From positions 1-46,574 of the forward strand of contig NZ_BKCF01000008.1 in assembly GCF_009014635.1 (NCBI RefSeq): DNA of 46,574 nucleotides, in the 5' to 3' direction. Position 1 is the stretch's first letter. Each line of letters opens with the position of its first letter. The notes below the pieces were generated by a model. That model searched no databases and was not told where the DNA came from. It saw only the letters and a program-made list of their open reading frames with translations. This document shows positions 543 through 45,196 of the stretch, in pieces. Made by a program: the position numbers and the translations under genes. This stretch comes from Patiriisocius marinistellae (GTDB taxonomy: Bacteria; Bacteroidota; Bacteroidia; Flavobacteriales; Flavobacteriaceae).

Positions 543-3500
543 TTAATTGTCACTGAAGCAATAGAACTATTTGGACATGCTCCTGTCGTTGTATAGGTTA
601 TTGAATAGGTTCCAGGTGTTGAAGCACTCACATCAATTGCTCCTGTTGAAGAAGTAATTGATAAGCCTGCACCACTTGTAAATGTTCCACCGGCTAATCC
701 AGTGATGGTTGGCGTTGGATCTGAATCGTCTGTACAATACGCTGCAGCATCATAACTGAAACTTGCATCGTCTAGGGCATTAATTGTAACTGAAGCAATA
801 GAACTATTTGGACATGTTCCTGTCGTTGTATAGGTTATTGAATAGGTTCCAGGTGTTGAAGCGCTCACATCAATTGCTCCTGTTGAAGAAGTGATTGATA
901 AGCCTGCACCACTTGTAAATGTTCCACCTGCTAATCCTGTAATCGTTGGCGTTGGATCTGAATCGTCTACACAATACGCTGCAGCATCATAACTGAAACT
1001 TGCATCGTCTAAGGCATTAATTGTTATTGAAGCAGTCGAACTATTTGGACATGTTCCTGCCGTTGTATAGATTACCGAATAGGTCCCAGGTGTTGAAGCG
1101 CTCACATCAATTGCTCCTGTTGTAGCATTAATAGATAGTCCCGTAGTACTTGAAAAAGTTCCACCTTCAACTCCTGTTATTGTTGGTGTTGGATCTGTTG
1201 CATCTTCACAATACGCTGCAGCATCATAACTGAAACTTGCATCGTCTAGGGCATTAATTGTTATTGAAGCAGTCGAACTATTTGGACATGTCCCTATCGT
1301 TGTATAGGTTACTGCATAGGTTCCAGGTGTTGAAGCACTCACATCAATTGCTCCTGTTGAAGAAGTAATTGATAAGCCTGCACCACTTGTAAATGTTCCA
1401 CCTGCCAATCCAGTGATGGTTGGAGTTGGATCTGAATCGTCTACACAATACGCTGCAGCATCATAACTGAAACTTGCATCGTCTAAGGCATTAATTGTTA
1501 CAGAAACATTTGAACTAGCTGGACAAACTCCTGAGGTTGTATACGTAACTGAATATGTGTTTGGAGTTGATGCACTCACATCTATCTGACCGGTCGATGC
1601 ATTTATGGTTAATCCTGCCGGTGCACTACTAAAAGTACCTCCTGCATCTCCAATAATTGTAGGAGTAGGGTCTGAAGCATCTACACAATAAGCAGCTGCA
1701 TCATAATTAAAACCTGCATCTTCAACATTAACAGTTAAGGTAGCTTCCGCTTCAGCTCCACAAATATTAGCTTCATTCGTAAATAAGACTTTGTAAATAT
1801 TACCGTCCATTGCCTCGGTCACTCCTGTTAACACAAGAGAAACTGTTGCACCACTCGCTACTGTTCCTGTTTCAGAAGCTAAATCTGAAAAATTTATCCC
1901 ATCTGTGCTAACCGACCATTGGTATGTTACATTTGTACTTGCTGTAGCAACTGGAGTGTTTGTTGCGACTGGAGTGGCATTAGCTACTGCATCAAATTGT
2001 GCTATTTCCGTTTCACATATATCTTCATCTTCAGGTGTCGTTGCAATCACGACATTCATTCCTTCTTCAAATGTATTTAACCCTGCACCTGTAGCCGTTG
2101 GCGCTACATATGATGCTGCTACTACTGTACCATCAACAGGATCTACTGCTGGAGTTCCATTTCCGAAGAAACCATTATTATCAAAATCTGTATCACTATT
2201 ATTATAGGCCTCGTCTGCATCATTACAACCATCTCCATCACTATCTTCATCAAAGATATTTGGTATACCATCCATATCAATATCACAGGCTAAATCTGGA
2301 TTCGTAAGGAATGGCACTAATTCACTTTCTAAAATTCCTTGATTACCACCCCAAAATTCTGCTCGAATATCAATGAAATCTAAATTTGAAATAACAGCCT
2401 CAAATGCTGTTTGTGACACACCAAAATTAGCAGCGGTCAATTGATAACTAACTGGAAAATCTCCAATCGCCTCAGTTGTTAAAAAAGGATCTTGATTCAC
2501 ATCTGAAATTAAGGTAGTTCCTCCAGAGACAAGACGAATGTCGTTATTAATAGCCTGCAAATTATTAAACCAAGATTGCCCTTGATCTTCAATATAAATT
2601 CGAAAATTTAAAAAATTACCATCTACACTAGAATAATCATCACCATTTAAATTTAATCTATACCAAGTCAATCCTAAATCTTGATCTAAATATCTTAATC
2701 CTGGCTCGTCACTCCCAGGGCCAGCATCTTGAACCAAAGGTGTTCCTGAAGCACCGCCACCAACAACAGTTAAATTACCCGAACTAAGAGAATTAATTAT
2801 GATATCTGACGAAAGAGATATATTTGGACATTCTACTGTATCTAGAATCCCATCATTATCATCATCAAGGTCACAACCATCCGGCACTAAATCGTTATCA
2901 TTATCTGCAGTATCATCAAATCCAGGGCAAACATCAGCCGTATCTGGAACTCCATCACCATCACTATCAGTAATATTTTCGATTGAATTTAAAGTAACTG
3001 ACAACTGTACCGTTTCAATTTCATCAATTGTTGTATTATTACCTCCACCAGCATTATTACCTGGAAAGAAAGTAAAATCTAAATCTGTAGCTGTTGCAGT
3101 AAAAACTATTTTATCTGTCTGCCATGTATTTTGACCACTAATAGCAATACTGGTAATAGCTTGCCCCTCTACAAGGTATCTATACGAATCATTAAAATTA
3201 GCAGCGTAAGCTATATTATTTCCATTAAAAACCGCTCCATTTCCATTCCCCAAAGCCGTTAAAGTATATACCGTTATCTCATAAGTATCACCTACAATAA
3301 GCTCTTCCATAGTTGTACGGACAGTTTCTTCTCCTGCTAAATCCCCTAAATCTCTTAAAGACAACCATGTTTCATGCCCATTAGGAGGGAGAGGCAAAGG
3401 ACCACTTAGCCAAGTATCACCACCACCACCACCCGCAGCAGCGGTAGAACAATTATTTCTATCCGAAACATCTGGAGAACCACCAGCATCCACCCACCCT

Positions 3501-3637
3501 GGAGGCGCACAGTTACCACAAATTCCACGTCCATTTGTTGCAGAAATAGTTTGTGAATATGATGAAATACTGAATAAAAAAATTAGAAACAGCGACAAGC
3601 AAATATTTCTATTAAGTAATTGAGTAAAATTTTTCAT
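1..3637 (-). CDS. Giant secreted repeat adhesin, 5' part (C-terminus beyond the window)
   Basis: Open reading frame of about 1,212 codons with no stop down to base 1; it starts at the ATG at 3637-3635. Residues 1-29 form a signal peptide ending near SYSQT. A unique domain follows, with the motifs GWV, GSPDVSD and a glycine run. Thrombospondin type-3-like calcium-binding repeats lie at about residues 232-275 (DSDGDGVPD, DNDNDLVPDGCDLDDDNDG), then a second unique domain, more such repeats near 450-480 (DIDMDGIPN, DEDSDGDG) and an Ig-like region. Five tandem 79-residue beta-domain repeats fill about 637-1031, followed by 105-residue cadherin-like repeats (VDEDDSVVLTPLD) running off the window. 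This architecture is typical of flavobacterial cell-surface adhesins exported by the type IX secretion system. The sorting domain that would prove this is not in view. Surface export is inferred; binding target unknown. Confidence 0.9.
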   Translation of the reverse strand, partial: MKNFTQLLNRNICLSLFLIFLFSISSYSQTISATNGRGICGNCAPPGWVDAGGSPDVSDRNNCSTAAAGGGGGDTWLSGPLPLPPNGHETWLSLRDLGDLAGEETVRTTMEELIVGDTYEITVYTLTALGNGNGAVFNGNNIAYAANFNDSYRYLVEGQAITSIAISGQNTWQTDKIVFTATATDLDFTFFPGNNAGGGNNTTIDEIETVQLSVTLNSIENITDSDGDGVPDTADVCPGFDDTADNDNDLVPDGCDLDDDNDGILDTVECPNISLSSDIIINSLSSGNLTVVGGGASGTPLVQDAGPGSDEPGLRYLDQDLGLTWYRLNLNGDDYSSVDGNFLNFRIYIEDQGQSWFNNLQAINNDIRLVSGGTTLISDVNQDPFLTTEAIGDFPVSYQLTAANFGVSQTAFEAVISNLDFIDIRAEFWGGNQGILESELVPFLTNPDLACDIDMDGIPNIFDEDSDGDGCNDADEAYNNSDTDFDNNGFFGNGTPAVDPVDGTVVAASYVAPTATGAGLNTFEEGMNVVIATTPEDEDICETEIAQFDAVANATPVATNTPVATASTNVTYQWSVSTDGINFSDLASETGTVASGATVSLVLTGVTEAMDGNIYKVLFTNEANICGAEAEATLTVNVEDAGFNYDAAAYCVDASDPTPTIIGDAGGTFSSAPAGLTINASTGQIDVSASTPNTYSVTYTTSGVCPASSNVSVTINALDDASFSYDAAAYCVDDSDPTPTITGLAGGTFTSGAGLSITSSTGAIDVSASTPGTYAVTYTTIGTCPNSSTASITINALDDASFSYDAAAYCEDATDPTPTITGVEGGTFSSTTGLSINATTGAIDVSASTPGTYSVIYTTAGTCPNSSTASITINALDDASFSYDAAAYCVDDSDPTPTITGLAGGTFTSGAGLSITSSTGAIDVSASTPGTYSITYTTTGTCPNSSIASVTINALDDASFSYDAAAYCTDDSDPTPTITGLAGGTFTSGAGLSITSSTGAIDVSASTPGTYSITYTTTGACPNSSIASVTIKGLPIAVNDDYDVDEDDSVVLTPLNLDSDPDGDTLTIESINGTALTPGTAQTIAVDNGIVTIDAAGVITFTPDANFNGDVVIPYVITDSDCGTATANETISVKEINDAPVAVDDDYTVDEDDSVVLTPLDLDTDLDGDTLTIESINGTALTPGTAQTIAVDNGTVTIDAAGVITFTPDANF
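543..1727 (-). repeat. Five tandem 237-bp repeats (79 residues each) inside the adhesin gene
   Basis: The unit begins with the plus-strand string TTAATTGT (or a near variant) at 543, 780, 1017, 1254 and 1491, and the next block starts with the same phase at 1728. The spacing is exactly 237 bp each time, so every unit is 79 codons. The four copies between 543 and 1490 are nearly identical at the DNA level. The copy at 1491-1727, nearest the protein N-terminus, is clearly more diverged. Each unit encodes a beta-rich domain with the landmarks ALDDASFSYDAAAYC, DPTPTI, GGTF and STPGTY, a type common in flavobacterial adhesins. The pattern suggests recent in-frame expansion from an older first copy. 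Confidence 0.95.
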
Positions 3638-4270
3638 AAGTAGGAAATATCAAATGATATAAATTCTTTAAAAATTAACTTAACAATCAATTGGTCTTAA
3701 AAAATGACATTCAATTGGATAGTAAATCAAGATGCGAATATAGTTATTAACAATATCAACACTATTATATACGACAAAACTAGACATATAGTTTCGTTTA
3801 AATACATTTTTAATCGTTTATTTACGTAAGGTTTTACTTACTTAACCTAAAAACAACCACTAAACAGTGTTAAACTACACTTAAACCTCTAAATATTTCT
3901 TAAAAAAACAATAGAAAATTATCAGTAAATAAGAACTAAAAAAGGGATAAAATTGTTTAAAAGATTAAGAAAAAATTAAAGAAAAATACAAATCACTCTT
4001 AAAAAAGGGGTAAAATCTATTTAAAGCGATTTAAGAGACTTTTAAAATTTATGTATACACACATATTTAAGCTTCTCAAAAACGCATAAAAATAGCTACA
4101 AATAGATGTTCTGAAATAGTATTTTTATATGTTATTTGGAATTTAGATAGACAAAAACTATTAAATTACTATTTAATGTAAGTTTTCACAAGACAAGCTC
4201 ACAAAGTGTTTTAGATTTGAAAAAATTAATAATGAGGTAAGCCTATGAGCAAATCTACTCTGTAGAAAAT
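3638..4270. other. AT-rich gap upstream of the adhesin gene, no gene seen
   Basis: About 630 bp with no convincing open reading frame on either strand. It should hold the adhesin promoter. A minus-strand match to the Bacteroidota -7 element, TAGTTTTG, lies at 3782-3775, but I see no good -33 element at the usual distance, so it is only a candidate. A pair of spaced direct repeats sits at 3938-4025 (separate entry). The rest is A- and T-runs. Confidence 0.5.
3938..4025. repeat. Two imperfect direct repeats 63 bp apart upstream of the adhesin gene
   Basis: The string AAAAAAGGGATAAAAT at 3938-3953 recurs as AAAAAAGGGGTAAAAT at 4001-4016, and both continue into similar T-rich then A-rich sequence. 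The offset is 63 bp, close to six helical turns, so the two boxes would lie on the same face of the DNA. They lie 300-390 bp before the adhesin start codon. A role as a regulator-binding pair is inference; in sequence this AT-rich, chance similarity is possible. Confidence 0.4.
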
Positions 4271-4300
4271 AAAAAACCGAATCTTTCGATTCGGTTTTTT
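4271..4300 (-). terminator. Intrinsic terminator of the tRNA operon
   Basis: Perfect 7-bp stem (CCGAATC at 4277-4283 with GATTCGG at 4288-4294) and a 4-nt loop, flanked by an A-run on one side and a T-run on the other. On the minus strand the hairpin is followed by a U-run, right after the tRNA-Leu gene. The symmetry means it could also work on the plus strand. Confidence 0.85.
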
Positions 4301-4304
4301 AAAG

Positions 4305-4390
4305 TACTGAAGACGGGACTTGAACCCGTACGGACATTACTGCCCACTGGATTTTAAGTCCAGCGTGTCTACCAATTCCACCACTTCAGC
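4305..4390 (-). tRNA. tRNA-Leu (anticodon UAA)
   Basis: On the minus strand the sequence begins GCTGAAG at 4390. The acceptor stem pairs with CTTCAGT ending at 4306 (closing G-U pair), and the discriminator base A is at 4305. The D-arm is GGTAGACACGC-like, the anticodon loop ACTTAAAAT gives anticodon TAA, a long variable arm is present as expected for leucine, and the T-loop is GGTTCAAGTCC. CCA is not encoded. It is the second gene of a two-tRNA transcript, 39 nt after tRNA-Gly. Confidence 0.95.
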
Positions 4391-4429
4391 GATTAAATAG
4401 CTACAAAAATGTAACTAGGTAGATACTTG

Positions 4430-4502
4430 AGCGAAAAACGGGATTTGAACCCGCGACCTCCACCTTGGCAAGGTGGCGCTCTACCAGCTGAGCTATTTTC
4501 GC
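4430..4502 (-). tRNA. tRNA-Gly (anticodon GCC)
   Basis: A 73-nt tRNA on the minus strand starting GCGAAAA at 4502, paired with TTTTCGC ending at 4431, discriminator T at 4430. The D-arm is AGCTCAGCTGGTAGAGC, the anticodon loop CTTGCCAAG reads GCC, and the T-arm is CGGGTTTGAACCC-like. CCA is not encoded. It is the first gene of the tRNA operon, about 50 nt from the likely transcription start. Confidence 0.96.
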
Positions 4503-4560
4503 AAATTATACCAATTTAATGGTAAGTATTTAAGAACGTACTTCGCTGTTAAAGCGGTTG

Positions 4561-4590
4561 CAAATTTAAAATAATTAGTTTAAACTCAAA
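4561..4590 (-). promoter_or_regulatory. Bacteroidota-type promoter of the tRNA operon
   Basis: On the minus strand TTTG (4590-4587), an 18-nt spacer and TAAATTTG (4568-4561) match the Bacteroidota housekeeping sigma-factor consensus TTTG-N19-TAnnTTTG. The expected start site is near 4554, about 50 nt before tRNA-Gly. Confidence 0.7.
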
Positions 4591-4950
4591 CCCTTTTTTA
4601 ACTTAAAATAATATTTTTTTTTAATTAAAACACAACACTTTAAATATTAACTCATTATGAAATAAAAACGTTCACAGTAAAAATTTATAAAAATTAAAAC
4701 TCCAATTTTAAATTTACTGTTCATTGGTTTTACAAAAAATGATTGAAATCAAGGGTTGACAACATGAAAAATTATTTTTTTTTAAATAACATTTAATAAA
4801 AAATGGATGTTAGGACATTAACATCAAATTAAAAAAATTAACATAATCCAAATTAAAATTAACACTTTAACGGATTTATTTGTTTTTAAACGTATTTTAT
4901 TCATATATTTACAATCTCCTCGCAAATAGTTTTAATTAAACTTTAAAGTT
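4591..4950. other. AT-rich gap between the tRNA operon and the C1q-like gene
   Basis: No gene seen. It holds the tRNA promoter at its left edge and, on the plus strand, a weaker promoter candidate for the following gene: TTTG at 4879-4882 and TATATTTA at 4904-4911 with a 21-nt spacer, which departs from consensus in the last base and in spacing. The middle is A- and T-runs without clear structure. Confidence 0.45.
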
Positions 4951-5610
4951 ATGAGATACATATTTATTTTTTTAGCCCTTAGCAGTACATTATATTCTCA
5001 AGTAGGAATAAACACAAGTAATCCACTTGCAACGTTAGACGTCAATGGAAGTTTAATGGTAAGATCTATACCTCTCGAAAACGACGCATCAAATGCAAAG
5101 AATTCAATTTTAATCACAAATAATAATGAAATAAAACAAATCCCATTATTAGAAATTTATAAAGAAGAATTTAAAACAGCAGTTAAAGGTAGTTTTGATA
5201 GCGCTTCTGCAATTAGTATTTCTTTATTAGGTGGATCAGGCATTGTACCTTTTGATAATGAAGATTTTGACATTAATGATGAGTTTGATACAACTACGCA
5301 TAAATTTACAGCTAAACAAGATGGAATTTATAGAATTTATGTTCAGGTTAAACAAAACAATCTACATATATCAACTAACTATGGAGTAAGAATCCTAAAG
5401 AATAACACTGTGATTCAAAAAAACTCATTTGCTAATTTAAGCGTAGCCTTAGTAAACATAACAACGCCTGTAAGAACTGTACAAACTCTTGTAGAATTAA
5501 ATGAAAATGATGAAATTAAGTTTGAAATTGAAAGTAGTTTAGTGAGTGTAGCTACAAATCTTGTAGGATCATCTGCTAATAGCTTCTTTACAATAGAGAG
5601 AATTCGTTAA
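4951..5610 (+). CDS. Secreted protein with a C1q-like domain
   Basis: 219 residues. Residues 1-16 are a short signal peptide ending in LYSQ, followed by the VGINTSNPLATLDVNG segment often found at the start of exported Bacteroidota proteins that resemble tail-fibre or adhesin pieces. From about residue 70 to the end the pattern is that of a C1q/TNF-like jelly roll: FDTTTHKFTAKQDGIYRIYVQV, then RILKNNTVI, then the closing SSANSFFTIERIR. C1q-like domains usually form trimers and bind ligands; the ligand here is unknown. It stands alone, converging on mutS with a 12-bp gap and no hairpin between them. The function is inferred from fold pattern only. Confidence 0.75.
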   Translation: MRYIFIFLALSSTLYSQVGINTSNPLATLDVNGSLMVRSIPLENDASNAKNSILITNNNEIKQIPLLEIYKEEFKTAVKGSFDSASAISISLLGGSGIVPFDNEDFDINDEFDTTTHKFTAKQDGIYRIYVQVKQNNLHISTNYGVRILKNNTVIQKNSFANLSVALVNITTPVRTVQTLVELNENDEIKFEIESSLVSVATNLVGSSANSFFTIERIR

Positions 5611-5622
5611 TTAAAATTAGTA

Positions 5623-8265
5623 TTACTTACTTTTTTTAATTTTTGCACTTCTTAACAACATACGTTTCATTTCGTTTAATTTCATTAGCGCTTCAACAGG
5701 AGTTAATGTGTCAATATCCACCTCTAAGATTTCTTCACGTAGCTCCTCTAGCAATGGATCATCAAGATTAAAAAAGCTTAGTTGCATTTCTTCTTCGGAA
5801 ATTTGCTTCATCTTGTCACTTAATTCTTCGGAAGAATGACTTTTTTCAAGCCGCTTCAAAATTTTATTGGCTCTATTTAAAACGGCTTGCGGCATTCCAG
5901 CCATTTTTGCAACGTGAATTCCAAACGAATGATGTGAGCCCCCCGGAACTAATTTCCGAAGAAATAATACATCATCTTTCAACTCTTTTACTGAAACATT
6001 ATAGTTTTTAATCCTGTTAAACGTTTCGGTCATCTCATTAATTTCATGATAGTGCGTTGCAAATAATGTTTTTGCATGACTGGGATGTTCATGTAAATAT
6101 TCACTAATAGCCCAAGCAATGGATATACCATCATAAGTGCTGGTTCCTCTACCTATTTCATCTAGAAGCACAAGGCTACGCTCACTAATATTATTTAAAA
6201 TACTCGCCGTTTCATTCATCTCTACCATGAATGTAGATTCGCCCATAGATATATTATCGCTTGCTCCCACTCTAGTAAAAATCTTATCTACTACACCTAA
6301 TCGTACCTCGCCAGCAGGGACAAAACTCCCCATTTGAGCAAGCAACACTATTAGTGCTGTTTGACGTAAAATAGCGCTTTTACCACTCATATTAGGCCCG
6401 GTAATCATAATGATTTGCTGACGCTCTCTATCAAGAAAAACATCGTTAGCAATAAATGGGGCATCTGGCGGTAACTGTTTTTCTATTACAGGATGACGGC
6501 CATCCTTTATATGCAGATCTGTAGTTTCGTCAAAAACTGGTCGTACATATTTAGCTGTTTTTGCATGAGAAGCAAATGAACACAAACAATCAACCTCAGC
6601 AATTAAAGACGCATTTTGTTGAACCGGTGCTATAAATTGAAGCATCCACTTAACTAATTTTACAAAAATTCCTTGTTCTAAAACTCCTATCTTTTCCTCA
6701 GCACCTAGAATTTTTGATTCATATTCTTTTAGCTCTTCAGTTATATATCGCTCTGCATTTACTAGTGTTTGTTTGCGTATCCACTCCTCTGGAACTTTAT
6801 CTTTATGGGTATTTCTCACTTCTATGTAATACCCAAACACATTGTTACTAGCAATTTTTAATGATGAAATTCCCGTACGCTCAGTCTCTCTTGCAAGCAT
6901 TTTATCTAGATATTCTTTTCCTCCAGTTGCAATGGCACGCAACTCATCAAGCTCAACGTGAAAACCAGAAGCAATAGCGTTTCCTTTTAAAATGTTGACA
7001 GGCGCTTCTTCATTTAAAGTTTCCTTTATTTTATCACGTAACAATTGACATTCATGTAATTGCTCACCTATTATTTTGAGTGATTCATTATCTGAATTTA
7101 TCGAAGCAATTTTTACAGGACTAACAGCTTCTAAAGAATTTTTTAACTGTATAACTTCTCTCGGGCTAATCTTTCCTGTTGCTACTTTTGAAATTAGCCT
7201 TTCTAAATCACCTATCCTTTTTATATGCGACTGTACATTAGTAAGCACCTTTTCGTTTTCGAGCAAATAACTTACCACCTCATGACGGCGATTAATTTTT
7301 TCTAAATCTTTTAACGGCAATGCCATCCATCTTTTCAATTTACGACCACCCATTGGCGAAATCGTTTTATCAATCACATCAAGTAATGTAACAGCATTTT
7401 GTTGATTTGAATGATACAGTTCAAGATTACGAATGGTAAATCTATCCATCCACACATACGCATCTTCGGCAATGCGAGACACTCGTGTAATGTGTTCTAA
7501 TTTATTGTGCTGTGTTTCTCCTAAATAATGAAGCGCAGCACCACTGGCAATAATTCCATTTTCTAAATGGTCGATTCCAAAACCTTTTAAATTTTTTGTG
7601 CCAAAATGTTTCTGCAATGTCTCTTTTGAGTAATCCATTTGAAATACCCAATCCTCCAAATGAAAAACATGAAAGTTATCTCCAAAAGTTTCAGAAAACT
7701 GTTTCTTTTTTTGTTTACTGAAAAGCACTTCGCTAGGATTAAAGTTTTGCAACAATTTATCCACATACTCAGCATTCCCTTCTGAAGTAAGAAATTCACC
7801 TGTCGAAATATCTAAAAAAGAAACTCCTATTTTTCTAGAATCACCAGAACTTTTTGAGGCGCCAAAATGTATCGCGGCTAAAAAATTATTTGACTTTGAT
7901 TGTAAAATATCATCGTTCAAAGCAACACCTGGCGTTACCAACTCGGTCACACCTCGTTTAACAATATTTTTTGTAAGCTTTGGGTCTTCGAGTTGGTCAC
8001 AAATAGCAACCCTACATCCTGCCATTACTAACTTAGGCAAGTATGTATTTAAAGAATGATGTGGAAACCCAGCAAGCTCAACAGCATCGCCCCCATTATT
8101 TCTTGCAGTTAAAGTAATATTCAAAATACCCGCCGCCCTTACTGCATCTTCCCCAAAAGTTTCATAAAAATCCCCTACTCTAAACAATAATAATGCATCA
8201 GGATATTTCGCCTTGATGGTATTGTATTGTTTCATTAAAGGGGTCACTTTTTTGGGCTTGCTCAT
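5623..8265 (-). CDS. mutS: DNA mismatch repair ATPase MutS
   Basis: 880 residues, a normal length for MutS. It recognises base mismatches and small loops and starts repair with MutL in the cytoplasm. The N-terminal mismatch-binding domain carries the Phe-X-Glu region in [15 protein letters not shown]. The P-loop GPNMSGKS lies near residue 622, and the Walker B and signature region [14 protein letters not shown] near 700. The C-terminus is the usual helix-turn-helix dimer region. It is the last gene after metF on the same strand, 207 bp downstream, and a long hairpin sits directly before its start codon (separate entry). It holds two exact copies of the CTTCGGAAA motif, at 5793 and 5953. Whether it shares the SAM-controlled transcript or has its own promoter is open. 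Confidence 0.98.
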
Positions 8266-8272
8266 CTTGTCT

Positions 8273-8324
8273 CTTCGGAAATTTTAAACATCTCAAAAAT
8301 ACCGAAATATTAAAATTTCCGAAG
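8273..8324 (-). repeat. 15-bp inverted repeat (long hairpin) just before mutS
   Basis: CTTCGGAAATTTTAA at 8273-8287 is perfectly complementary to the arm at 8310-8324, with a 22-nt loop. On the minus strand the hairpin ends 7 nt before the mutS ATG, so in a transcript reading through from metF it could block ribosome access or act as a weak processing or stop signal; no U-run follows. The loop contains TATTTTTG (8301-8294), a -7-like element without a clear -33. Each arm is a copy of the dispersed 9-mer. Confidence 0.8.
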
Positions 8325-8472
8325 AAATCATTACCCGTAGTTATGCACTTTTGAAAGCAGGATTGATCGATTTATCAACAAAAACCATTTGGAGTAAAAA
8401 CTGAAAGCTAAATAAAAGATAAAAAACATTCTAAATTTGAGCTTAAAAATGCTCAATAACACACAAAAAAAA

Positions 8473-9435
8473 CTAGAACAACTCCCCAGCAATGGATCTA
8501 ATATTATCACTCTTCCCCATTGAATAATAATGTAAAACAGGGACGCCAGCCTCAATAAGCTCTTTGCTTTGAGCAATGCTCCATTCAACACCTACTTGAC
8601 GGACGGCTTTATTATCATTACATTTTACAATTTCCATAATAAGGTCATCCGGTAACTCACAAGCAAAGCGATGCGGAATTAAATTAAGTTGTTTCTTAGT
8701 TGCAATTGGTTTTAACCCTGGAATAATAGGCACTGTAATTCCTTCTTTCCTACATTTATCGACAAATTTAAAGTACTTTTTATTATCATAAAAAAGCTGT
8801 GTCACTATGTAAGTAGCGCCACTTGCTATTTTCTTTTTTATAAAATGAATATCGCTATCAAGACTGGGAGCTTCAATATGCTTTTCAGGATAACCTGCAA
8901 CGCCAATGCAAAAATCTGTTTTTGATTGGTTTTGTATTTCTGCATCTAAATACTCACCATTATTGAGTGCTTGAATTTGACTCACTAACTCGCTGGCATA
9001 TGTATGTCCTTCCCCTTCGGGTGTAAAATACGTTTCGTTCCTAACGGCATCTCCTCGTAACGCCATCACATTATCAATCCCTAAAAAACCCAAGTCAATC
9101 AAAAAGTTTTCTGTATCCTCTTTAGTAAAACCACCGCATAATATATGCGGTATAGCATCTACTTGATATCTATTTTGAATCGCAGCGCAAATACCCACTG
9201 TTCCAGGACGCTTACGTACTATTTTCTTTTTTAACAATCCATTTTCTTGTTCTTGATATACATACTCTTCTCTGTGGTATGTTACGTCAATAAACGGCGG
9301 TTTAAATTCCATCAAGGGGTCAATATTGTCAAATATTTGTTGAATATTCTGCCCCTTTAAAGGAGGTAAAATCTCAAAACTAAACTGAGTTTTACCGTTG
9401 GCTTCTTTTATGTGTTCTGTTACTTTCATATTCAA
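8473..9435 (-). CDS. metF: Methylenetetrahydrofolate reductase
   Basis: 320 residues, slightly longer than the E. coli enzyme. It reduces 5,10-methylene-THF to 5-methyl-THF using FAD and NAD(P)H, supplying the methyl group for methionine synthase. Family landmarks are FSFEILPPLKG near residue 20, PPFIDVTYH near 48, GDAVR near 128 and YIVTQLFYD near 203, all in the TIM-barrel flavin site. The gene follows the second metH gene by 28 bp and is part of the methionine operon. The start MNMKVTEHI fits the family; the second Met is equally possible. No odd features apart from the 207-bp gap to mutS. Confidence 0.96.
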   Translation of the reverse strand: MNMKVTEHIKEANGKTQFSFEILPPLKGQNIQQIFDNIDPLMEFKPPFIDVTYHREEYVYQEQENGLLKKKIVRKRPGTVGICAAIQNRYQVDAIPHILCGGFTKEDTENFLIDLGFLGIDNVMALRGDAVRNETYFTPEGEGHTYASELVSQIQALNNGEYLDAEIQNQSKTDFCIGVAGYPEKHIEAPSLDSDIHFIKKKIASGATYIVTQLFYDNKKYFKFVDKCRKEGITVPIIPGLKPIATKKQLNLIPHRFACELPDDLIMEIVKCNDNKAVRQVGVEWSIAQSKELIEAGVPVLHYYSMGKSDNIRSIAGELF

Positions 9436-9463
9436 TTATGCTCTAAGGCATGGAGTTTTTTTT

Positions 9464-12259
9464 CTAGTCAGCAATATTGGGCGCAAGCCATTTTAATGCT
9501 TTTCCTTCGGAAATTTGCCTGCGATTAGCAAAATCCTTTACTTGATCTTCTTTTATTTTTCCGAGTCCAAAATAGCGAGCTTCGGGATTTCCAAAATAAT
9601 ATCCACTTACCGATGCCGCTGGCCACATTGCTAATCCCTCTGTCAACTCCACTCCTATTTCCTCTTTCACATTTAAGACCTCCCAAATAGTTAGTTTTTC
9701 TAGATGGTCTGGACATGCTGGATATCCTGGCGCAGGGCGAATGCCTTTATAACTTTCTTTAATTAAATCTTCATTTGTTAATGTTTCATTCTCAGCATAG
9801 CCCCAATGTTTTGTGCGCACTTGTTTGTGTAAATATTCGGCGAAGGCTTCTGCGAGTCTGTCTGCTATTGCTTTTACCATTATCGAATTATAATCGTCAT
9901 TTTCTGCTTCATATTTTTTGGCTAATTCTTTAGTTCCAAAGCCTGTGCTCACACAAAAACAACCCACATAATCCTGAATGCCTGTATTTAGTGGTGCGAT
10001 AAAATCTGCTAATGCAACATTAGGCCTTCCAGTTGCTTTTTTTGATTGTTGCCGAAGAGTGTGAAATATAAATTTATCTGCACCAAGAGAGTTTTCTTCT
10101 ACGCTGGAACAGACAACATTTTTTAATTCAATATCATCATCATTGATTGTATTTGCTTCAAACAGTCCAAAAATTGCTTTTGCAGTCAACAGCTTTTCTG
10201 AAATAATTTTATTGAGAATAACTTGAGCATCATTAAACAACTCAGTAGCTTGCGAGCCCACAACTGTATCTGATAATATCTGCGGAAATTTGCCGTGTAA
10301 ATCCCAGCTTCTGAAAAATGGACTCCAATCAATGTAATCCCTCAATAACTCTAAATCAAGTTTCTCTATTTTTTGAATTCCTAATGTCCTCGGTTTAAAA
10401 ATTCCCGAAGTATTCCAATCAATTTTTAATTTATTAGTTCTGGCTTGCTTAACACTCAAGTATTCTTTAGTGCGCTGCCTTCCCAGAAAATTATTTCTAA
10501 ATACCGCATAATCTGCTTTTAAATCTTTCTTGTAATTATCTTTTTTTTCTTTTTGTAATAAATCTCCAACAACCGTAACTGCTCTTGACGCATCATTAAC
10601 ATGCACAACTGCATGTTTATATTCTGTATCAATTTTTACTGCTGTATGTGCTTTGCTTGTTGTTGCTCCACCAATCATGAGTGGAACTTCAAAATTTTGA
10701 CGTTGCATTTCTTTTGCTATAAAAACCATCTCATCAAGCGACGGTGTAATCAATCCACTTAACCCAATAATATCTACATTGTGCGCTTTTGCTTCTGCAA
10801 TAATTTTTTCAGGAGGCACCATTACTCCTAAATCTACAATCTCATAATTATTACAAGCAAGTACTACCGAAACAATGTTCTTCCCTATGTCATGAACGTC
10901 TCCTTTTACCGTTGCCATTAATATTTTACCTGCACCTCTTTGCTGTACCTTTGCATCCTTATTCGTTAATAAATCTTGCTTTAGTTGTTTTTGCTTTTCG
11001 GCTTCAATAAAAGGCTCTAGATACGCTACAGCTTTTTTCATTACACGAGCACTTTTTACTACTTGAGGAAGAAACATTTTCCCACTCCCAAAGAGGTCTC
11101 CCACCACATTCATTCCTGTCATTAAATTGCCTTCGACAACTTCAATTGGAGCGTTCGCTTCTTGCCTTGCTTGTTCTACATCTTCAATAATATATTGGTC
11201 TATTCCTTTTACTAATGCACGAGTAATTCGGTTTTGGAGAGGTTCCATTCTCCAACTTAAATCAACAGTGTTTTCTTTTACCTGTCCTACTACGGTTTCG
11301 GCAAATTCTAATAGTCTTTCAGTGGCATCATCGCTACGGTCAAAGATGACATCTTCAACGTGTTTTAATAAATTTTTTGGGATGTCATCATAAATCTCAA
11401 GCATCGTAGGATTTACAATCCCAATATTCATTCCTGCTTTTATTGCATGGTATAGAAACACTGAGTGCATTGCTTCCCGCACGGTATTGTTCCCACGAAA
11501 ACTAAATGACACATTACTCACTCCACCACTTACACTACAATACGGTAGATTTTCTTTTACCCACCGAGTAGCTTCTATAAAATCTATAGCATTTTTACGG
11601 TGTTCTTCCATTCCTGTTGCCACAGGAAAAATATTTAAATCAAAGATGATATCTTCAGGCTTAATGCCTACCGAGTTTACTAAAATATCATACGAGCGTT
11701 TTGAAATTTCACAACGGCGATTAAAATTATCCGCTTGTCCCACCTCATCAAATGCCATTACAATTACGGCTGCTCCATAGCGTTTTATTTTTCTTGCATT
11801 TTCAATAAATTCTGTCTCACCTTCTTTTAAGCTAATTGAATTGACAATACATTTACCTTGTACTACTTGAAGTCCAGCTTCAATAATTTCCCACTTAGAG
11901 CTATCAATCATTATGGGTACGCGAGCAATATCTGGCTCCGCAACTATCAAGTTTAAAAACCTGACCATCGCAGCCTTACCGTCAATGAGACCATCGTCCA
12001 TATTGATGTCAATTATCTGTGCACCATTTTCAACTTGATCACGCGCAATTGCAAGTGCTTCTTCAAATTTTTCCTCTTTAATTAAACGTAAAAACTTTCG
12101 GGAACCGGCTACGTTTGTTCTTTCGCCAACGTTGATAAAATTACTTTGGGGGGTTATAATTAAAGGTTCTAAACCAGATAATTTTAGCACTCGATTTTGG
12201 GTGTTATTCATTTCCGAAGAACATAAAACACTATTTTTTATTTCTGAAATATTAGACAT
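9464..12259 (-). CDS. metH: Cobalamin-dependent methionine synthase, folate, B12 and reactivation domains
   Basis: 931 residues, equivalent to the C-terminal three-quarters of a one-piece MetH. The pterin-binding barrel starts with [16 protein letters not shown] near residue 40. A helical cap precedes the B12-binding domain with DVHDIGKN near 455 (the His that ligates cobalt) and the later GLSGLITPS and GGATTSK loops. The C-terminal reactivation domain has the SAM-binding signature [12 protein letters not shown] near 845. It moves the methyl group from 5-methyl-THF through cobalamin to homocysteine, which is bound by the separate partner encoded just upstream. Its ATG overlaps the upstream stop codon by 8 bp (ATGTCTAA), so the two are probably translationally coupled. 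It contains the 9-mer motif at 9505 and 12211. Confidence 0.97.
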
Positions 12260-13271
12260 ACAAAACAGGGGAATTTAATGGACGAGGTTTGTATTCACTT
12301 GCAATTTTTGCGATGGCCTTAATATGTGGTGGTGTTGTACCACAGCATCCTCCAATTATATTAATAAGCTTTTTATCAAGATACTCCCTGATTTGTTCTG
12401 CCATTTGCTCTGGAGATTCGTCATATTCACCAAAGGCATTTGGCAATCCTGCGTTGGGGTAAGCGCTTATCGCAATATCAGTGCGATTGCTTACCACCTC
12501 TAAATGGGGTGTTAATTGTTTAGCGCCCAAAGCACAATTGAATCCAACGCTCAATAATGGAATATGCGAAATTGAGATCAAAAAAGCCTCAGCCGTTTGA
12601 CCAGATAGCGTTCGCCCAGAGGCATCTGTAATTGTCCCGCTGACCATTATGGGAATGTCTATTTGACGTTCCTCTTTAATTTCTTCAATTGCAAATAATG
12701 CAGCTTTTGCGTTGAGTGTATCAAAAATAGTTTCTATTAAAAGCACATCAACACCGCCGTCAAGTAATGCTTCTGCCTGTTGCTTATATGCAACTCGTAG
12801 CTCATTAAAAGAAACGGCTCTAAACCCCGGGTCATTTACATCTGGGCTCATGCTAGCCGTTTTATTTGTTGGCCCAATTGCTCCTGCTACAAATCTGGGT
12901 TTATGCGGTTCTTTTTTAGTAAAAACTTTTGCAACTTCTCTCGCTATTTTAGCGCTTTCAAAATTGAGCTCGTATACTAAGTCTTGCATGTCATAATCTG
13001 CCATAGCAATTGTTGTCCCTGAAAACGTATTTGTCTCCACAATATCTGCACCAGCTTCAAAATACTTGGCGTGTACTTCTGCAATTGCTTTGGGTTGTGT
13101 GATAGAAAGCAAGTCATTATTTCCTTTTACGGATGTATGAAAATCTTTAAATCGCTCACCTCTAAAATCTTCTTCGGTAAAATTATAACGTTGCAACATG
13201 GTTCCCATCGCTCCATCGAGTATTAGGATTCTGTCGCGCAATGCTTGATTTAATTTGCTGGTGTTCTTCAT
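12252..13271 (-). CDS. metH: Homocysteine S-methyltransferase subunit of split methionine synthase
   Basis: 339 residues, matching only the N-terminal zinc-dependent homocysteine-binding barrel of MetH. The N-terminus has [12 protein letters not shown]. The zinc-binding cysteines are visible in GFNCALGA near residue 244 and [10 protein letters not shown] near 309. It activates homocysteine as a thiolate and must work with the folate/B12 polypeptide encoded by the overlapping next gene. A MetH divided at this point is common in Bacteroidota, so it is not a frameshift: both halves have proper starts and stops and an 8-bp overlap. Third gene of the methionine operon, 9 bp after the homoserine dehydrogenase gene. 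Confidence 0.95.
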
Positions 13272-13280
13272 TCTCTATAT

Positions 13281-14426
13281 TTAGTTTTTAATCTGTTCAC
13301 TCAGCCTCAAAATATCTCCAAAAACTCCCCTTGCCGTAACCTCAGCGCCAGCACCAGCTCCTTGAATTACAATTGGGTTTTTATCGTAGTTTTCTGTATA
13401 AATTTCAAATATGGTGTCGCTACCTTTTAATTGACCAATGACCGAATCCTTAGCAACTTCAACTAACCTTACGGCAAGATTGGCTCCATCATTTTTGGCT
13501 AAATTGCCAGATAATTCGGCTACATAACGCAATACATTCCCTTTTCTACAATTGGTTTTTTTGATTTTATAAGGAACGTCTAAATAAAATAGAGAATTAA
13601 GAAACTCTTCTTTTGAGCTATTTCTTAAACTTTTTGGGACTAGATTTTCAACCATTACGTCCTTTAATTCATTGTGCAAATCTAACTCTCGAGCGAGAAT
13701 TAATAATTTTCTTGCTACATCATTTCCATTTAAATCTTCACGAGGGTCTGGCTCTGTAAAACCTTTTTTAATAGCGCGGCTTAGCACCTCACTAATGGGT
13801 AAATTACTATTACCAAAAGTGTTAAAGATGTAGCTTAATGAGCCTGAGAAAACACCTCTAATTTTAGTGATATTTTCACCACTAGCATGCAATAATGAAA
13901 TGGTATCGATTAAAGGTAATCCTGCGCCTACATTAGTCTCGTACAAATATTTTTTATGATTAACTTGTAGCGTTTTCCTTAAATTTTGATAAAATTGTAA
14001 CGACTGTGTATTCCCTTTTTTGTTTGATGATACTAAGTGAAAACCTGCATTGATTAAAGTAGTGTATTCATGAACTATGTTATCATCTGCAGTGTTATCA
14101 ACTGCAATTACATGTTCAAACTCATGTAATTTTACAAAATCAATTATTGTTTGTACTGAGTATCTAGTTCCATATGTATGTTTTTCTAGCTGCCAATTTT
14201 TATTAATACCGTCTGGTCTTAAAAGTAATTTAGTAGAGTTTACTACCGCAATAATTTTTACATTTAAATCCCTACGTTTCCATAGTGATAGATGTTTATC
14301 TAAAATTTGCTCTATTAATGTACTTCCTACTTTCCCATGACCAAAAACAACTACATTAATATTTGTTTTTTTTAGTGCAACTAAATCAATCTTTTCTCTT
14401 TCTACAGTTTCTATACTTGTACTCAT
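13281..14426 (-). CDS. hom: Homoserine dehydrogenase
   Basis: 381 residues. It reduces aspartate semialdehyde to homoserine, the branch point for threonine and methionine. The NAD(P)-binding loop is VVFGHGKVGSTL near residue 27. The catalytic region carries VSSNKKGN, YETNVGAGLPLIDT, RGVFSGSLSYIFNTF and KGFTEPDPREDLNGNDVARKL. It matches the dehydrogenase part of bifunctional aspartokinase-homoserine dehydrogenases but has no kinase domain and no C-terminal ACT domain, so feedback by threonine is not expected. Placement inside a SAM-riboswitch operon suggests a copy dedicated to methionine synthesis. Second gene of the operon, 81 bp after the PLP enzyme gene. Confidence 0.93.
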   Translation of the reverse strand: MSTSIETVEREKIDLVALKKTNINVVVFGHGKVGSTLIEQILDKHLSLWKRRDLNVKIIAVVNSTKLLLRPDGINKNWQLEKHTYGTRYSVQTIIDFVKLHEFEHVIAVDNTADDNIVHEYTTLINAGFHLVSSNKKGNTQSLQFYQNLRKTLQVNHKKYLYETNVGAGLPLIDTISLLHASGENITKIRGVFSGSLSYIFNTFGNSNLPISEVLSRAIKKGFTEPDPREDLNGNDVARKLLILARELDLHNELKDVMVENLVPKSLRNSSKEEFLNSLFYLDVPYKIKKTNCRKGNVLRYVAELSGNLAKNDGANLAVRLVEVAKDSVIGQLKGSDTIFEIYTENYDKNPIVIQGAGAGAEVTARGVFGDILRLSEQIKN

Positions 14427-14507
14427 AACTTTAATTATTTTTAGTCTAATGCAGCCAGAACTGTTACCACTTTGACTGCATTAAATTCATTTTCTTGTTT
14501 GATTTTT

Positions 14508-15677: not shown

Positions 15678-15697
15678 TTTTCTAAAATTTACTTCGA

Positions 15698-15924: not shown

Positions 15925-15953
15925 TTTCAATAAAGTTTTGAACTTTGTGAGGA

Positions 15954-18770: not shown

Positions 18771-18785
18771 AACATAAAAAATACT

Positions 18786-32387: not shown

Positions 32388-33152
32388 TTATAAAAAATTC
32401 ATAACAATTTGGTAATATTCATCAGGATTTTCTGCATGCAGCCAATGACCTGCATTTGAAACTGTTTTTATTTTACTCTTCGGAAATTGTTTTTTGATTC
32501 CCCACTCATCTTCGTCTTCAATATATCCAGACTTAGCTCCTCTTACAAATAGTGTATCTCCTTTAAAGACTAAAGTTTCTGACAATGCCTTGCCAACTTC
32601 TTCTATTTTTTCTGAAACTACAGGTAAGTTAACCCGTAACGCTAAAACTCCTTTTTCTTTCCAATATAAATTTTTAAGCAAAAATTGTCTTGTACCCACA
32701 TCTTTAATATAATCACTCAAAACATCATCTGCCGCTCCTCTACTTTTCAATTTAGAAAAATCTAATAGCGACAATGCTTTCAAAATATCTTGATGATGTT
32801 GAGGATATGACTTAGGACCAATATCTGCAATTACTAACTTAATTATTCGGTCCGGGTATATTGCAGCAAATTCCATTGCAACCTTTCCCCCCATAGAATG
32901 CCCCATTAAATAGATGTGTTCCAACTCATGCTCATCGCAATACCCCAGTAAATCATCAGCCATTAATTGATAGTTCCAATCGTCACTATGAAAACTACGA
33001 CCATGGTTTCTCTGATCAACAAGGTGAACTTCAAATCCATCATTCGCAAATTGATTTGCCATCGTTTTCCAATTATCGCCCATACCCATAAAACCATGTA
33101 AAATAACTAATGGCTTTCCTTCGCCTATAATTTGTGAATGTAGTATCTGCAT
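32388..33152 (-). CDS. Alpha/beta hydrolase (YbfF-like esterase)
   Basis: 254 residues without a signal peptide. The oxyanion region is VILHGFMGMGDNW at 16-28. The nucleophile elbow GHSMGG holds Ser86, an acid lies near 208 in the VRGAKSGYIEDED region, and the catalytic His lies in SNAGHWLHAENP near 235. The N-terminal layout and DQRNHGRS match the YbfF group of cytoplasmic esterases. Its start codon overlaps the pdxJ stop codon by one base (TAATG), so the two are translationally coupled. The substrate is unknown and a link to vitamin B6 is not implied by the family. Confidence 0.88.
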   Translation of the reverse strand: MQILHSQIIGEGKPLVILHGFMGMGDNWKTMANQFANDGFEVHLVDQRNHGRSFHSDDWNYQLMADDLLGYCDEHELEHIYLMGHSMGGKVAMEFAAIYPDRIIKLVIADIGPKSYPQHHQDILKALSLLDFSKLKSRGAADDVLSDYIKDVGTRQFLLKNLYWKEKGVLALRVNLPVVSEKIEEVGKALSETLVFKGDTLFVRGAKSGYIEDEDEWGIKKQFPKSKIKTVSNAGHWLHAENPDEYYQIVMNFL

Positions 33153-41421: not shown

Positions 41422-42213
41422 ATGAATAAAGAGGCTCCCATAGGTATATTTGATTCTGGTGTAGGCGGTACTTCCATCTGGAAAGAGATACATGCCTTAC
41501 TTCCATTTGAAAACACTATCTATCTAGCAGATAGTAGAAACGCACCTTACGGGTATAAATCTGCCCAAGAAATCCTCCAACTCTCTATTAAAAATACAGA
41601 ACAGTTATTAAAAATGGGATGTAAAATAATCGTCGTTGCTTGCAACACTGCAACTACAAATGCGATAGATTATCTAAGAAAAAACTACAATGTGCAAATT
41701 ATAGGTATTGAACCAGCAATTAAACCAGCCGCGTTACAAACAACTACAAAAAGCATAGGTATACTAGCCACAAAAGGCACACTAAGCAGCGCATTGTTTC
41801 ACAAAACATCACAAGCATTTGCAAAGGATTTAAAAGTTGTAGAGGTCATAGGAGAAGGATTAGTGCCACTCATAGAAAAAGGAGCTCTAAAAAGCCCTCA
41901 AATGACAGCGCTTTTACAAAAGCTTTTAGCCCCCATGATAGCTGTAAACATTGACCACCTAGTTTTAGGTTGTAGCCACTATCCATACTTAATTCCGCAA
42001 CTAGTAAAATTACTCCCTAAAAGTGTGAAAATTATTGATAGTGGTGGCGCTGTAGCTAGACATACACAAAGATTATTAATAGAAAATAAACTTTTAAATA
42101 CTTCGGAAACGGAACCTTGCCTTGAATTTTTCAGTAATTCGAAAACTGATACCCTAGCATTACTATTAAATTTGTATAAAAACAAGATAAATATTACAAA
42201 TCTAAATTTTTAG
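41422..42213 (+). CDS. murI: Glutamate racemase
   Basis: 263 residues. It converts L- to D-glutamate for peptidoglycan. Landmarks are GIFDSGVGGTS with Asp11, YLADSRNAPYGYKS, the first catalytic cysteine Cys74 in VVACNTATTNA, and the second near 184 in LVLGCSHYPYL. It lies 171 bp after ompH, beyond a terminator, so it probably has its own promoter; a weak TATCTTTA element is at about 41409. The 9-mer motif occurs in the gene at 42101 and, inverted, just after it at 42236. Confidence 0.97.
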   Translation: MNKEAPIGIFDSGVGGTSIWKEIHALLPFENTIYLADSRNAPYGYKSAQEILQLSIKNTEQLLKMGCKIIVVACNTATTNAIDYLRKNYNVQIIGIEPAIKPAALQTTTKSIGILATKGTLSSALFHKTSQAFAKDLKVVEVIGEGLVPLIEKGALKSPQMTALLQKLLAPMIAVNIDHLVLGCSHYPYLIPQLVKLLPKSVKIIDSGGAVARHTQRLLIENKLLNTSETEPCLEFFSNSKTDTLALLLNLYKNKINITNLNF

Positions 42214-42261
42214 CAGATTAAATGGTTGTCTAATATTTCCGAAGAAATTTTAAAGAATATT

Positions 42262-43009: not shown

Positions 43010-45196
43010 TTAATCTTTTTTTACCATAAGGACTACGCGTGTACCTTCGGTATTTTCTTGAACATCGGTGATAGTTACATCTACTTTATCTTTATACATT
43101 TCGTTAAGGATAGAAATTCGTTTTTTTATATTTCCCATCCCTTTTGATTTTTGCTTTTTTTGATTTTCGGTTTTAAAACCTGCAGATTTTGCTCTTCCTA
43201 TTCCGTCGTCCTCAATAGTAATTTTTACTGTTGAATCATTAACTTTCTTAAAGTCAATAACCAAATGTCCACGCTCTTCTTTATATCGCAATCCATGCCA
43301 CACAGCATTTTCAACATAGGGTTGCAACAACATAGGGGGTATAACAAAATCATCATGTAATAATTTTTCGTCTACATTTATTGCATAATCAAACTTATCC
43401 TTAAAACGGAAATGTTCTAGCTTTGTATAAATTTCAAGCAATTCAATTTCTTTAGTGAGCGGAATAAAATCTTCTTCACTATTCTCTAAAACCGAACGCA
43501 TCAATTGTGAAAATTCACTCAAATATTTATTTGCTGCTCGTTCATCATTTGTAGCAATAAAACTATTAACCGAATTCAAAGCATTAAAAATAAAATGTGG
43601 ATTCATTTGCGAACGCAGTGATTTAAGTGCTAATAAATTATTTGCAAACTTTTGCTGCTTGATGTTTTTAAATTGAGTGTATGCTGTAAATAACAACAAT
43701 AAAGCAATCACTATTAATGAACCAATAATCCATTGTTGGGTACGATTATTTGTCTCAATGAGTTCTTGATTTTCAAATGCTAATTTATATCTACTCTCAT
43801 TTAATTCGCGTTCGTTTTCAAGACCTGCAATTCTGTTTTGTTTCGTTAAAATTTCGCGAGAAAATCTTGCCGCTTGTGAAATTTCTTGCTCCTTTTTAAT
43901 GTAAAGCTCATCAACAACTTCAACATAGCGCTCATAACCTTCTGCCGCTTTATCAAACTCACCTATGTCTCTATATACTTCAGACAATTTTCGTCTTGCA
44001 TCTTTTTCAACATATAAATCTGCTTTTTCATCAGCTTCTTCAATACTTCGCTCTAAGTATGGGATTGCCTCTGCATATTTTTCTTGACCAATAAAAGCAT
44101 TAGCTATTTTATAATTTTGACGTTGTGGTGAAAGTGCCGGATTGTCTTCAATACTTTCATCATTCTTTGATATATTCTCAACTTCGGTCAATGTTTCTTC
44201 TCTAAGCTCAATCTCCTTTTCGTATTCACCATTTAGATTATAAAAATCTGCTACTTTATTTTTCTCTTCGGTAGCACGTTTTGGACTTTCTTTTTTTGAC
44301 AAGTCCAGTGAATTTCCGAAGTAATTGTTTGCATCTTGTTTATTTCCGCTTTGCGAATATGCGACAGCTATTTTAGAGTTTAAATCTATTACAGAGGGTT
44401 TAAAATCATTTTCAGAGGCTATTTTTAATGCTTTTTTAAAATTAGAAATACCGGTGTTTGTTTCGCCTATGGCAGTGTATATATCTCCCAATCCTTCAAA
44501 CACGGCTATTTTTTGAATTTCTGTAAGCGTTTTTTGTTGTAGAATTTTATAAAGTGAAATTGCTTCTTGGTAGTTTTTATTTTTAGTAAAAGAAACAGCC
44601 AATTTTATATTTCTTCTATTTGTTGATTGATTGACAATGCTTCTTTTATAATTTTCACTTGCTAAATCATAAAGTTGCCAAAACATGTAAGTATCTCCAA
44701 GGGTTTCAAAAGCTAGACTTTTTTGTAGTGCAGTAGGCGTTTTTCCTGTATCACTTTGTAGTGCTTTTGTTATGTACTCTATACTTTTTTCTGCATCCCG
44801 CTTAGAGAAAAACTTTGCTGAATCTAAATAAACAATAAAATTATTTTGACTATTAAATCTCCTCTTATTAGTTTTAGTTAAATGTAATTGGCTTTCAACT
44901 AAAATAGTGACATTTTCTTTGGTGTTTACTTCGTAATACACTGTTTTAAACGCATCACTTTTGATAACTAAGTTGTCACCTAAACTTGCATTAATAATAA
45001 ATGAACCATCTGCAATAGTTGTGGTATAATCACCGCCTTCTATCTCAACATTTACTTTAAAGATAGGTGCATTTGAATCTTTCTCAAGCACTTTACCCTT
45101 TAGCCGAAATGTATTTTCTGAATATTTTTTCACCTGTCCATTAACACTAAAGGTGAGTAATGAAAGCATAAAAAAGACTATTACTAATTTATTCAT
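43010..45196 (-). CDS. Sensor histidine kinase with carboxypeptidase-like and TPR domains (LytS type)
   Basis: 728 residues. Signal peptide 1-20 (VIVFFMLSLLTFSVNGQ), then a carboxypeptidase-D-regulatory-like beta domain (FRLKGKVLEKDSNAPIF, TTTIADGSFII) at about 30-105. A long TPR solenoid covers about 115-450 (repeated GDIYTAIGETNTGISNFKKALKIA-type helices), then a coiled coil, one membrane span near 488-508 and the kinase core: QMNPHFIFNALNSVNSF with the phospho-His near 535, PPMLLQPYVENAVWHGL and IEDDGIGRAKS for ATP binding. The sensor region faces the periplasm. It is co-transcribed with the LytTR regulator. Signal unknown. Confidence 0.93.
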   Translation of the reverse strand: MNKLVIVFFMLSLLTFSVNGQVKKYSENTFRLKGKVLEKDSNAPIFKVNVEIEGGDYTTTIADGSFIINASLGDNLVIKSDAFKTVYYEVNTKENVTILVESQLHLTKTNKRRFNSQNNFIVYLDSAKFFSKRDAEKSIEYITKALQSDTGKTPTALQKSLAFETLGDTYMFWQLYDLASENYKRSIVNQSTNRRNIKLAVSFTKNKNYQEAISLYKILQQKTLTEIQKIAVFEGLGDIYTAIGETNTGISNFKKALKIASENDFKPSVIDLNSKIAVAYSQSGNKQDANNYFGNSLDLSKKESPKRATEEKNKVADFYNLNGEYEKEIELREETLTEVENISKNDESIEDNPALSPQRQNYKIANAFIGQEKYAEAIPYLERSIEEADEKADLYVEKDARRKLSEVYRDIGEFDKAAEGYERYVEVVDELYIKKEQEISQAARFSREILTKQNRIAGLENERELNESRYKLAFENQELIETNNRTQQWIIGSLIVIALLLLFTAYTQFKNIKQQKFANNLLALKSLRSQMNPHFIFNALNSVNSFIATNDERAANKYLSEFSQLMRSVLENSEEDFIPLTKEIELLEIYTKLEHFRFKDKFDYAINVDEKLLHDDFVIPPMLLQPYVENAVWHGLRYKEERGHLVIDFKKVNDSTVKITIEDDGIGRAKSAGFKTENQKKQKSKGMGNIKKRISILNEMYKDKVDVTITDVQENTEGTRVVLMVKKD

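Follow-up and report, generated by a model that had tools for sequence, protein, structure and literature searches.

Why is a 9-bp word, CTTCGGAAA, repeated so often in the 46,574-nt stretch of Patiriisocius marinistellae DNA considered here (contig NZ_BKCF01000008.1, positions 1 to 46,574, hereafter the window)? Sixteen exact copies are present in the window, as compared with 0.34 on average, and never more than 2, in 100 dinucleotide shuffles. The positions given for these copies in an earlier reading of the stretch (the sequence-only reading) were all exact, and its estimate of about 0.3 copies by chance agrees with the shuffle mean; as for the two near misses that it had added to the family, TTCGGAAA is indeed at 33506, while CTTCGGAAG starts at 5826 and not at 5825. 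The answer that we favor is that CTTCGGAAA is probably the core of a DNA-uptake (self-recognition) sequence that has accumulated via biased natural transformation.

The enrichment extends to the whole genome from which the window derives (G000; 3,338,299 bases, or 3.34 Mb, in 30 contigs), in which there are 967 copies of CTTCGGAAA (499 and 468 by strand) versus 42 (18 and 24) of the reversed control word. The sequence-only reading had named two outcomes as counting against the motif, enrichment confined to the window and a genome count near the Markov expectation; this comparison does not refute it (Markov orders 6 and 7 are taken up below). In a G000 sample of 846,574 bases, made up of the window and 40 stretches of 20 kb, 270 copies were found where Markov models predict 5.4 (order 0), 6.2 (order 3), 23.4 (order 4) and 80.9 (order 5), and the motif was the commonest of the 7,560 words with the same composition (median 3) and approximately third among all 9-mers. 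When genes were called in this sample with our own script, 160 copies fell within them, versus a mean of 7.0 and a maximum of 13 in 20 synonymous-codon shuffles (5.4 were expected when the codon-boundary dinucleotides were preserved), and the other 110 lay in intergenic DNA, which makes up 10% of the bases and in which 2.0 were expected. The earlier claim that the motif is read within genes in all frames and both directions also stood, as all six combinations of frame and orientation were found, although they were used unevenly, and the synonymous shuffling bore out the view that protein constraint is an insufficient cause. The over-representation of the motif is real, strong and lineage-specific.

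The motif is longer than 9 bases and is best written as a form of approximately 15 bases, TTnCTTCGGAAAT[T/G/A]T[T/G]A, with CTTCGGAAA as its core. An unbiased word count gave as the top 10-mer ATTTCCGAAG, which is the motif plus one base, together with a second set of high-ranking words of the TTCTGAAAT type. Alignments of 149 and 270 copies showed TT at -3/-2, CTTCGGAAA, T, any base other than C, T, T/G, A and A/C. The extension is stronger outside genes, with T at +9 in 0.94 of 110 intergenic copies versus 0.79 of 160 genic copies, as is expected where coding constrains the motif. Single-base neighbors are scarce: CTTCGGAAAT has 229 copies and CTTCTGAAAT has 64, and the remaining 29 words each have at most 25. 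At the center of the core, which is near-palindromic (TTCNGAA), T (64 copies) and, less so, A (14) are tolerated, as compared with 229 copies of the 10-base form.

Among 11 genomes of the genus, five (G000, G005, G006, G007 and G009) were strongly enriched, with 326–967 copies, and the six congeners with genomes of 1.7–2.1 Mb were at the control level (18–57 copies versus 37–53 for the control). The motif was also weakly enriched in a few other genera of the Flavobacteriaceae. Across 349 genomes of the family, three of them from the genus, the extended form CTTCGGAAATNTKA occurred 373 times in G000 (versus 1 for the control), 251 times in G006 and 184 times in G007, with 0–4 copies in most others; an excess of at least 9 was seen in G316 (55), G299 (34), G078 (32), G368 (22) and G306 (15) and, at the lower end, in G087 (13), G060 (11), G234 (11) and G286 (9). 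With one mismatch allowed, the five excess genomes tested had 109–272 copies versus 21–36 for the controls, and G000 had 800 versus 37. When the center base was left free in 395 genomes of the order, two of them from the genus, G000 (474) and G006 (360) were followed by G078 (53) and G132 (25). Eighty-eight other loci totaling 1.52 Mb (80 mutS loci, one being that of G005 itself, and 8 DUF5689 loci) held 38 copies of the 9-mer versus 26 of the control word. Two genomes initially assumed to be further carriers, G022 and G017, were dropped since their copies of CTTCGGAAA (within genes 106 and 53, versus synonymous-shuffle values of 9.9 and 9.3) were almost wholly genic, lacked the 3' extension and showed little pair skew (described below).

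Other words were also encountered among these relatives. G022 (L041–L044, L065–L079, L094–L103) has strongly over-represented words of its own, CATGATAGC, CAACGGTCC, CGCCTAAGC and GCCCGGACC, and in the G006 sample (L045–L064) the 20 copies of CACAATCGG lie within two 5-kb bins and are probably a local repeat array. No clear candidate for another dialect emerged when the mutS loci were pooled, several of the top words looking like tRNA words, and a candidate word in G008 was dropped when it came to 5 copies in 17 kb once the overlap of L208 and L212 was allowed for.

Motif density is about sixfold higher between genes than within them, and along 600 kb of contig C1 motif clusters are more evenly spaced than chance (coefficient of variation 0.68 versus 0.89 for the null, with none of 500 nulls as low). 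Three motif-free stretches were examined, with 18 of their 34 open reading frames (ORFs) of at least 150 aa scanned. One is a 20-kb type I restriction/GmrSD/RhuM island on contig C9 (22,714 b), where positions 1–20000 (L020) carry genes for type I restriction R, S and M, GmrSD, a UvrD-like helicase, RhuM and a Z1-domain protein (8 of 11 such ORFs scanned); the second, a 12-kb gap on C1, includes two O-antigen ligase genes; the third is taken up below. It is because of the count, the mixed genic and intergenic placement, the AT-rich extension, the even spacing and the lineage-limited distribution that we consider an uptake sequence likely, and the same features support the DNA-uptake option that the sequence-only reading had listed.

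If so, a putative motif-preferring receptor on the cell surface would bind free DNA of the same lineage, which would be imported and would then replace the homologous chromosomal stretch. Since motif-bearing DNA would preferentially be imported and recombined, point mutations that create the motif would tend to spread to other cells, a form of molecular drive. The importer would probably be the outer-membrane system of the Flavobacteriaceae type, comprising a TonB-dependent-receptor-like protein and a DUF5689 protein, followed by ComEC. Candidates for these components are encoded in G000. A DUF5689 protein on C1 (L022 15784–17202, minus strand) adjoins a 916-aa protein (L022 17238–19988, minus strand) that we read as TonB-dependent-receptor-like, its single Pfam match being a sub-threshold one to a CarboxypepD_reg-like domain, and the ComEC match scores below the curated cut-off. 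Searched against solved structures, the receptor-like protein had no match and the best match of the DUF5689 protein was 8jiy (E 0.0026). In Riemerella anatipestifer, a DUF5689 protein and an adjacent outer-membrane protein are essential for transformation (PMC8459023), which is inhibited by mutation of a tonB gene (PMC8383284); we liken the G000 pair to that pair by domain type and adjacency (PMC8459023), not by protein sequences. A second, weak DUF5689-like match in a frame of ~580–600 aa was found in the four enriched congeners (G005:C36:31639, G006:C3:259858, G007:C7:81239 and G009:C186:12014, the last below the curated cut-off) and was not reported for G000 or the small-genome congeners. 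It could encode a candidate for the motif reader, or simply a secreted protein that is unrelated.

How the copies are arranged relative to one another is seen already in the window, where they are as follows:
2160 to 2168, minus strand: in a gene (own gene call) extending beyond the window edge.
5793 to 5801, plus strand: within mutS, convergent with 5953 at 160 bp.
5953 to 5961, minus strand: within mutS, kept in four other enriched congeners and missing from the three non-enriched ones compared.
8273 to 8281, plus strand: intergenic, convergent with 8316 at 43 bp; the pair can fold as a hairpin.
8316 to 8324, minus strand: intergenic, pairs with 8273.
9505 to 9513, plus strand: within a metH-like gene (B12-dependent methionine synthase domains).
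12211 to 12219, minus strand: close to the start of the metH-like gene.
18675 to 18683, plus strand: within ORF 18027–18770.
22585 to 22593, plus strand: within ORF 22157–22756, convergent with 22741 at 156 bp.
22741 to 22749, minus strand: pairs with 22585.
29252 to 29260, plus strand: intergenic, convergent with 29381 at 129 bp.
29381 to 29389, minus strand: intergenic, pairs with 29252.
32478 to 32486, plus strand: within ORF 32388–33152.
42101 to 42109, plus strand: within ORF 41422–42213, convergent with 42236 at 135 bp.
42236 to 42244, minus strand: intergenic, pairs with 42101.
44313 to 44321, minus strand: within the histidine-kinase/TPR gene 43010–45196.

Pairs were compared with a null that preserved the gene and intergenic classes (400 runs), with pairs less than 10 bp apart (one pair, at 9 bp) left out. 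At 10–300 bp there were 36 convergent pairs versus 8.2 in the null (4.4-fold, with no null run as high), 10 divergent versus 8.3, and 5 in the same direction versus 16.3. The corresponding numbers at 300–1000 bp were 19 versus 14.5, 4 versus 14.7 and 7 versus 29.3, and at 1000–3000 bp they were 36 versus 41.6, 43 versus 41.8 and 65 versus 83.7. At distances below 1 kb, in other words, copies avoid each other except where they face one another. Among partners with a changed center base the convergent excess was weak, with 11 convergent, 5 divergent and 7 same-direction below 300 bp. Across the whole of G000, pairs at 130–190 bp were convergent, divergent or same-direction in the numbers 23/1/9 (null 1:1:2; binomial p for the convergent share 9e-8), and the same skew was present when G005, G006, G007 and G009 were summed (25/6/3, binomial p 4e-9, with one G007 pair that has a shared partner counted once, so that 3 of the 4 listed were used). 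G003 had no pairs at this distance in any orientation, and the skew was small in G022 (7/4/7) and G017 (2/1/3).

In a toy drive model (six runs per variant, with arbitrary parameters), non-polar import depleted all three pair arrangements equally, and one-way import (restricted to DNA on the CTTCGG side and directed away from a convergent pair), with every site able to start it, depleted same-direction and divergent pairs and left convergent pairs 1.6-fold in excess. This excess was lost when a single site per fragment could start import, and import of the opposite side favored divergent pairs. Because the one-way variant gave a convergent excess and the non-polar variant did not, the data suggest that the motif is directional, and a motif acting one way would account for part of the pair pattern. 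Neither the sharpness of the convergent excess at less than 300 bp (4.4-fold) nor the absence of divergent depletion at those distances was reproduced by any variant, and a further factor is therefore needed. On a directional view, copies would compete unless pointing at one another, so that the genome would fill with convergent pairs, which would serve as two-way loading points. The fuller proposal, that this is an independently evolved uptake sequence of the Bacteroidota, used by a pilus-independent, TonB-driven outer-membrane importer whose direction of import is set by the motif, is one that we put forward tentatively and with more doubt than confidence.

Several results weigh against an uptake sequence. 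The convergent-pair excess is unpredicted by the ordinary uptake-sequence model. At Markov orders 6 and 7, in the range of 5–7 that the sequence-only reading had proposed, the expectation rises to 228.6–253.6 versus 270 observed and the excess is almost gone; in our reading the model here absorbs the motif signal, because the inner words are found mostly inside the motif. The largest motif-free gap on sampled C1, the third of the stretches mentioned above, carries ordinary genes (a regulator, a metallo-beta-lactamase fold protein, tyrosyl-tRNA synthetase and two transporters; 5 of 12 ORFs scanned). The presence of the candidate uptake genes is no guide to enrichment, because DUF5689 (in 46 of 59 relatives) and sub-cut-off ComEC (in 27 of 30) occur in relatives whether enriched or not, including the motif-poor congeners, and both were accordingly ruled out as the discriminating factor. 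Lastly, only 3 of 11 comparisons of window sites with G005, G006 and G007 were exact, all at one mutS site, and each of these three genomes has one copy that is missing from the window. That site, at 5953, is present in all five enriched genomes (G000, G005, G006, G007 and G009) and not in G003, G004 or G008, and it is present too in Aequorivita lipolytica, outside the genus. The background share of identical 9-mers is 7–10%, and in 4 of the 8 orthologous places without the exact word the center base is the sole difference. Exact orthologous conservation is modest and turnover is fast beyond the mutS site, conservation having been examined chiefly around mutS because the G000 and G006 samples share just 8 reciprocal-best orthologues. 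Downstream of mutS, at 4304–4502, are tRNA-Leu and tRNA-Gly genes, and the tRNA-Gly stretch is identical in G005.

The alternative that survives best, although we consider it unlikely, is a binding site for a chromosome-organizing, nucleoid or repair protein that acts on convergent pairs, for example by DNA bridging, and is unrelated to uptake. Orientation-dependent pairing, the near-palindromic core and the even spacing are all consistent with such a site, but there was no strand polarity along 600 kb of C1 (105/97, p=0.62) and pair distances were not in phase with the DNA helix (for 48 and 73 distances, the Rayleigh nR2 was 0.6 and 1.0 with a 10.5-bp period and reached at best 2.3, at 9.7 bp), most copies lie outside close pairs, and in six congeners the motif stays at the control level. 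As a general explanation, transcription terminators or other hairpins in RNA are very unlikely. The two close convergent pairs that were folded, at 25 and 43 bp, do give strong hairpins, with energies of -17.4 and -14.4 kcal/mol (z -6.9 and -5.9), but the genic location of 160 of the 270 copies, an intergenic density that is alike across all four gene arrangements (1.1–1.5 per kb) and the spacing of more than 50 bp in the majority of close pairs refute terminators for most copies, and a secondary use of the closest pairs is possible.

A Chi- or KOPS-type polar signal for recombination or chromosome segregation is highly improbable. Abundance and a lineage-specific sequence would fit a signal of this kind, but the polarity that the chi-type option of the sequence-only reading calls for was sought in strand counts, and in GC skew as a stand-in on this 30-contig draft assembly, and was absent: the strands are balanced genome-wide (p=0.33) as on C1, and the counts are unrelated to GC skew (12 bins). 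We give even less credence to a mobile element dispersed through the genome, or to the terminal inverted repeats of one, which convergent pairs resemble, since in 29 stretches lying between paired copies the 12 most frequent 7-mers are all AT-rich words, 17 of the 36 close adjacent convergent pairs (one 9 bp apart) are wholly genic, with 16 wholly intergenic and 3 spanning both, and several copies are a single base away from the congener sequence. Codon or dipeptide usage or base composition has next to no probability: the Markov expectation climbs at orders 5–7 and some coding cause may act on the genic, unextended copies of G022 and G017, but in G000 genic and intergenic copies alike far exceed expectation, and G022 and G017 are also above shuffling.

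The uptake sequence that we favor can be compared with three known systems. Like the uptake signal sequence (USS) of the Pasteurellaceae, which has a 9-bp core, an AT-rich flank, more than 1,000 copies (65% of them within open reading frames) in no preferred orientation, a spacing described as even, and some overlapping inverted pairs that form hairpins (PMC7811141, PMC1939737), CTTCGGAAA combines a 9-bp core and AT-rich flank with mixed placement, no strand bias, even spacing and hairpin-forming pairs. In Haemophilus influenzae, 230 pairs of USS lie no more than 100 bp apart, and 109 of these are inverted and separated by at most 14 bp; the source gives no orientation for the remainder, with which the convergent excess at 60–290 bp here would be compared, and reports that two USS within 100 bp bring no extra uptake and that uptake peaks are centered on the USS (PMC7811141). 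The core sequence and the phylum are unrelated to those of the USS, and the density is lower (967 copies in 3.34 Mb versus 1,465 core copies in H. influenzae).

The DNA uptake sequence (DUS) of the Neisseriaceae, which is read by the pilin ComP, is likewise a short repeated motif, but its sequence is unrelated and the Flavobacteriaceae seem to rely on a different pair of outer-membrane proteins. The DUS is a motif of 10–12 bases with a spacing tied to transfer length, is scarce in recently acquired genes (PMC2397512) and has lineage dialects (PMC3630211). Orthologous conservation here is weaker than is given for the DUS in PMC2397512, and the folded hairpin pairs resemble the terminator pairs of USS and DUS genomes (PMC7811141, PMC2397512). 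In Riemerella, the transformation system is like the candidate machinery of G000 in having a DUF5689 protein, an adjacent outer-membrane protein and ComEC (PMC8459023), and R. columbina favors its own DNA; the k-mer table in that report holds A/T words with at most one C or G and no motif like CTTCGGAAA (PMC7965970).

If the uptake reading is true, DNA self-tagging evolves repeatedly and independently of type IV pili, and natural transformation in uncultured flavobacteria would be detectable from sequence alone, which would also open a way into their genetics. One-way import, as predicted by the orientation rule, is directly testable. A strong uptake-motif preference was described in 2020 as a property of two families, the Pasteurellaceae and Neisseriaceae (PMC7811141), and no uptake sequence in the Bacteroidota was found in the titles and abstract openings of the open-access literature matches listed. 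Alongside those two families, the motif would be a third, unrelated case, in another phylum and with a different outer-membrane importer.

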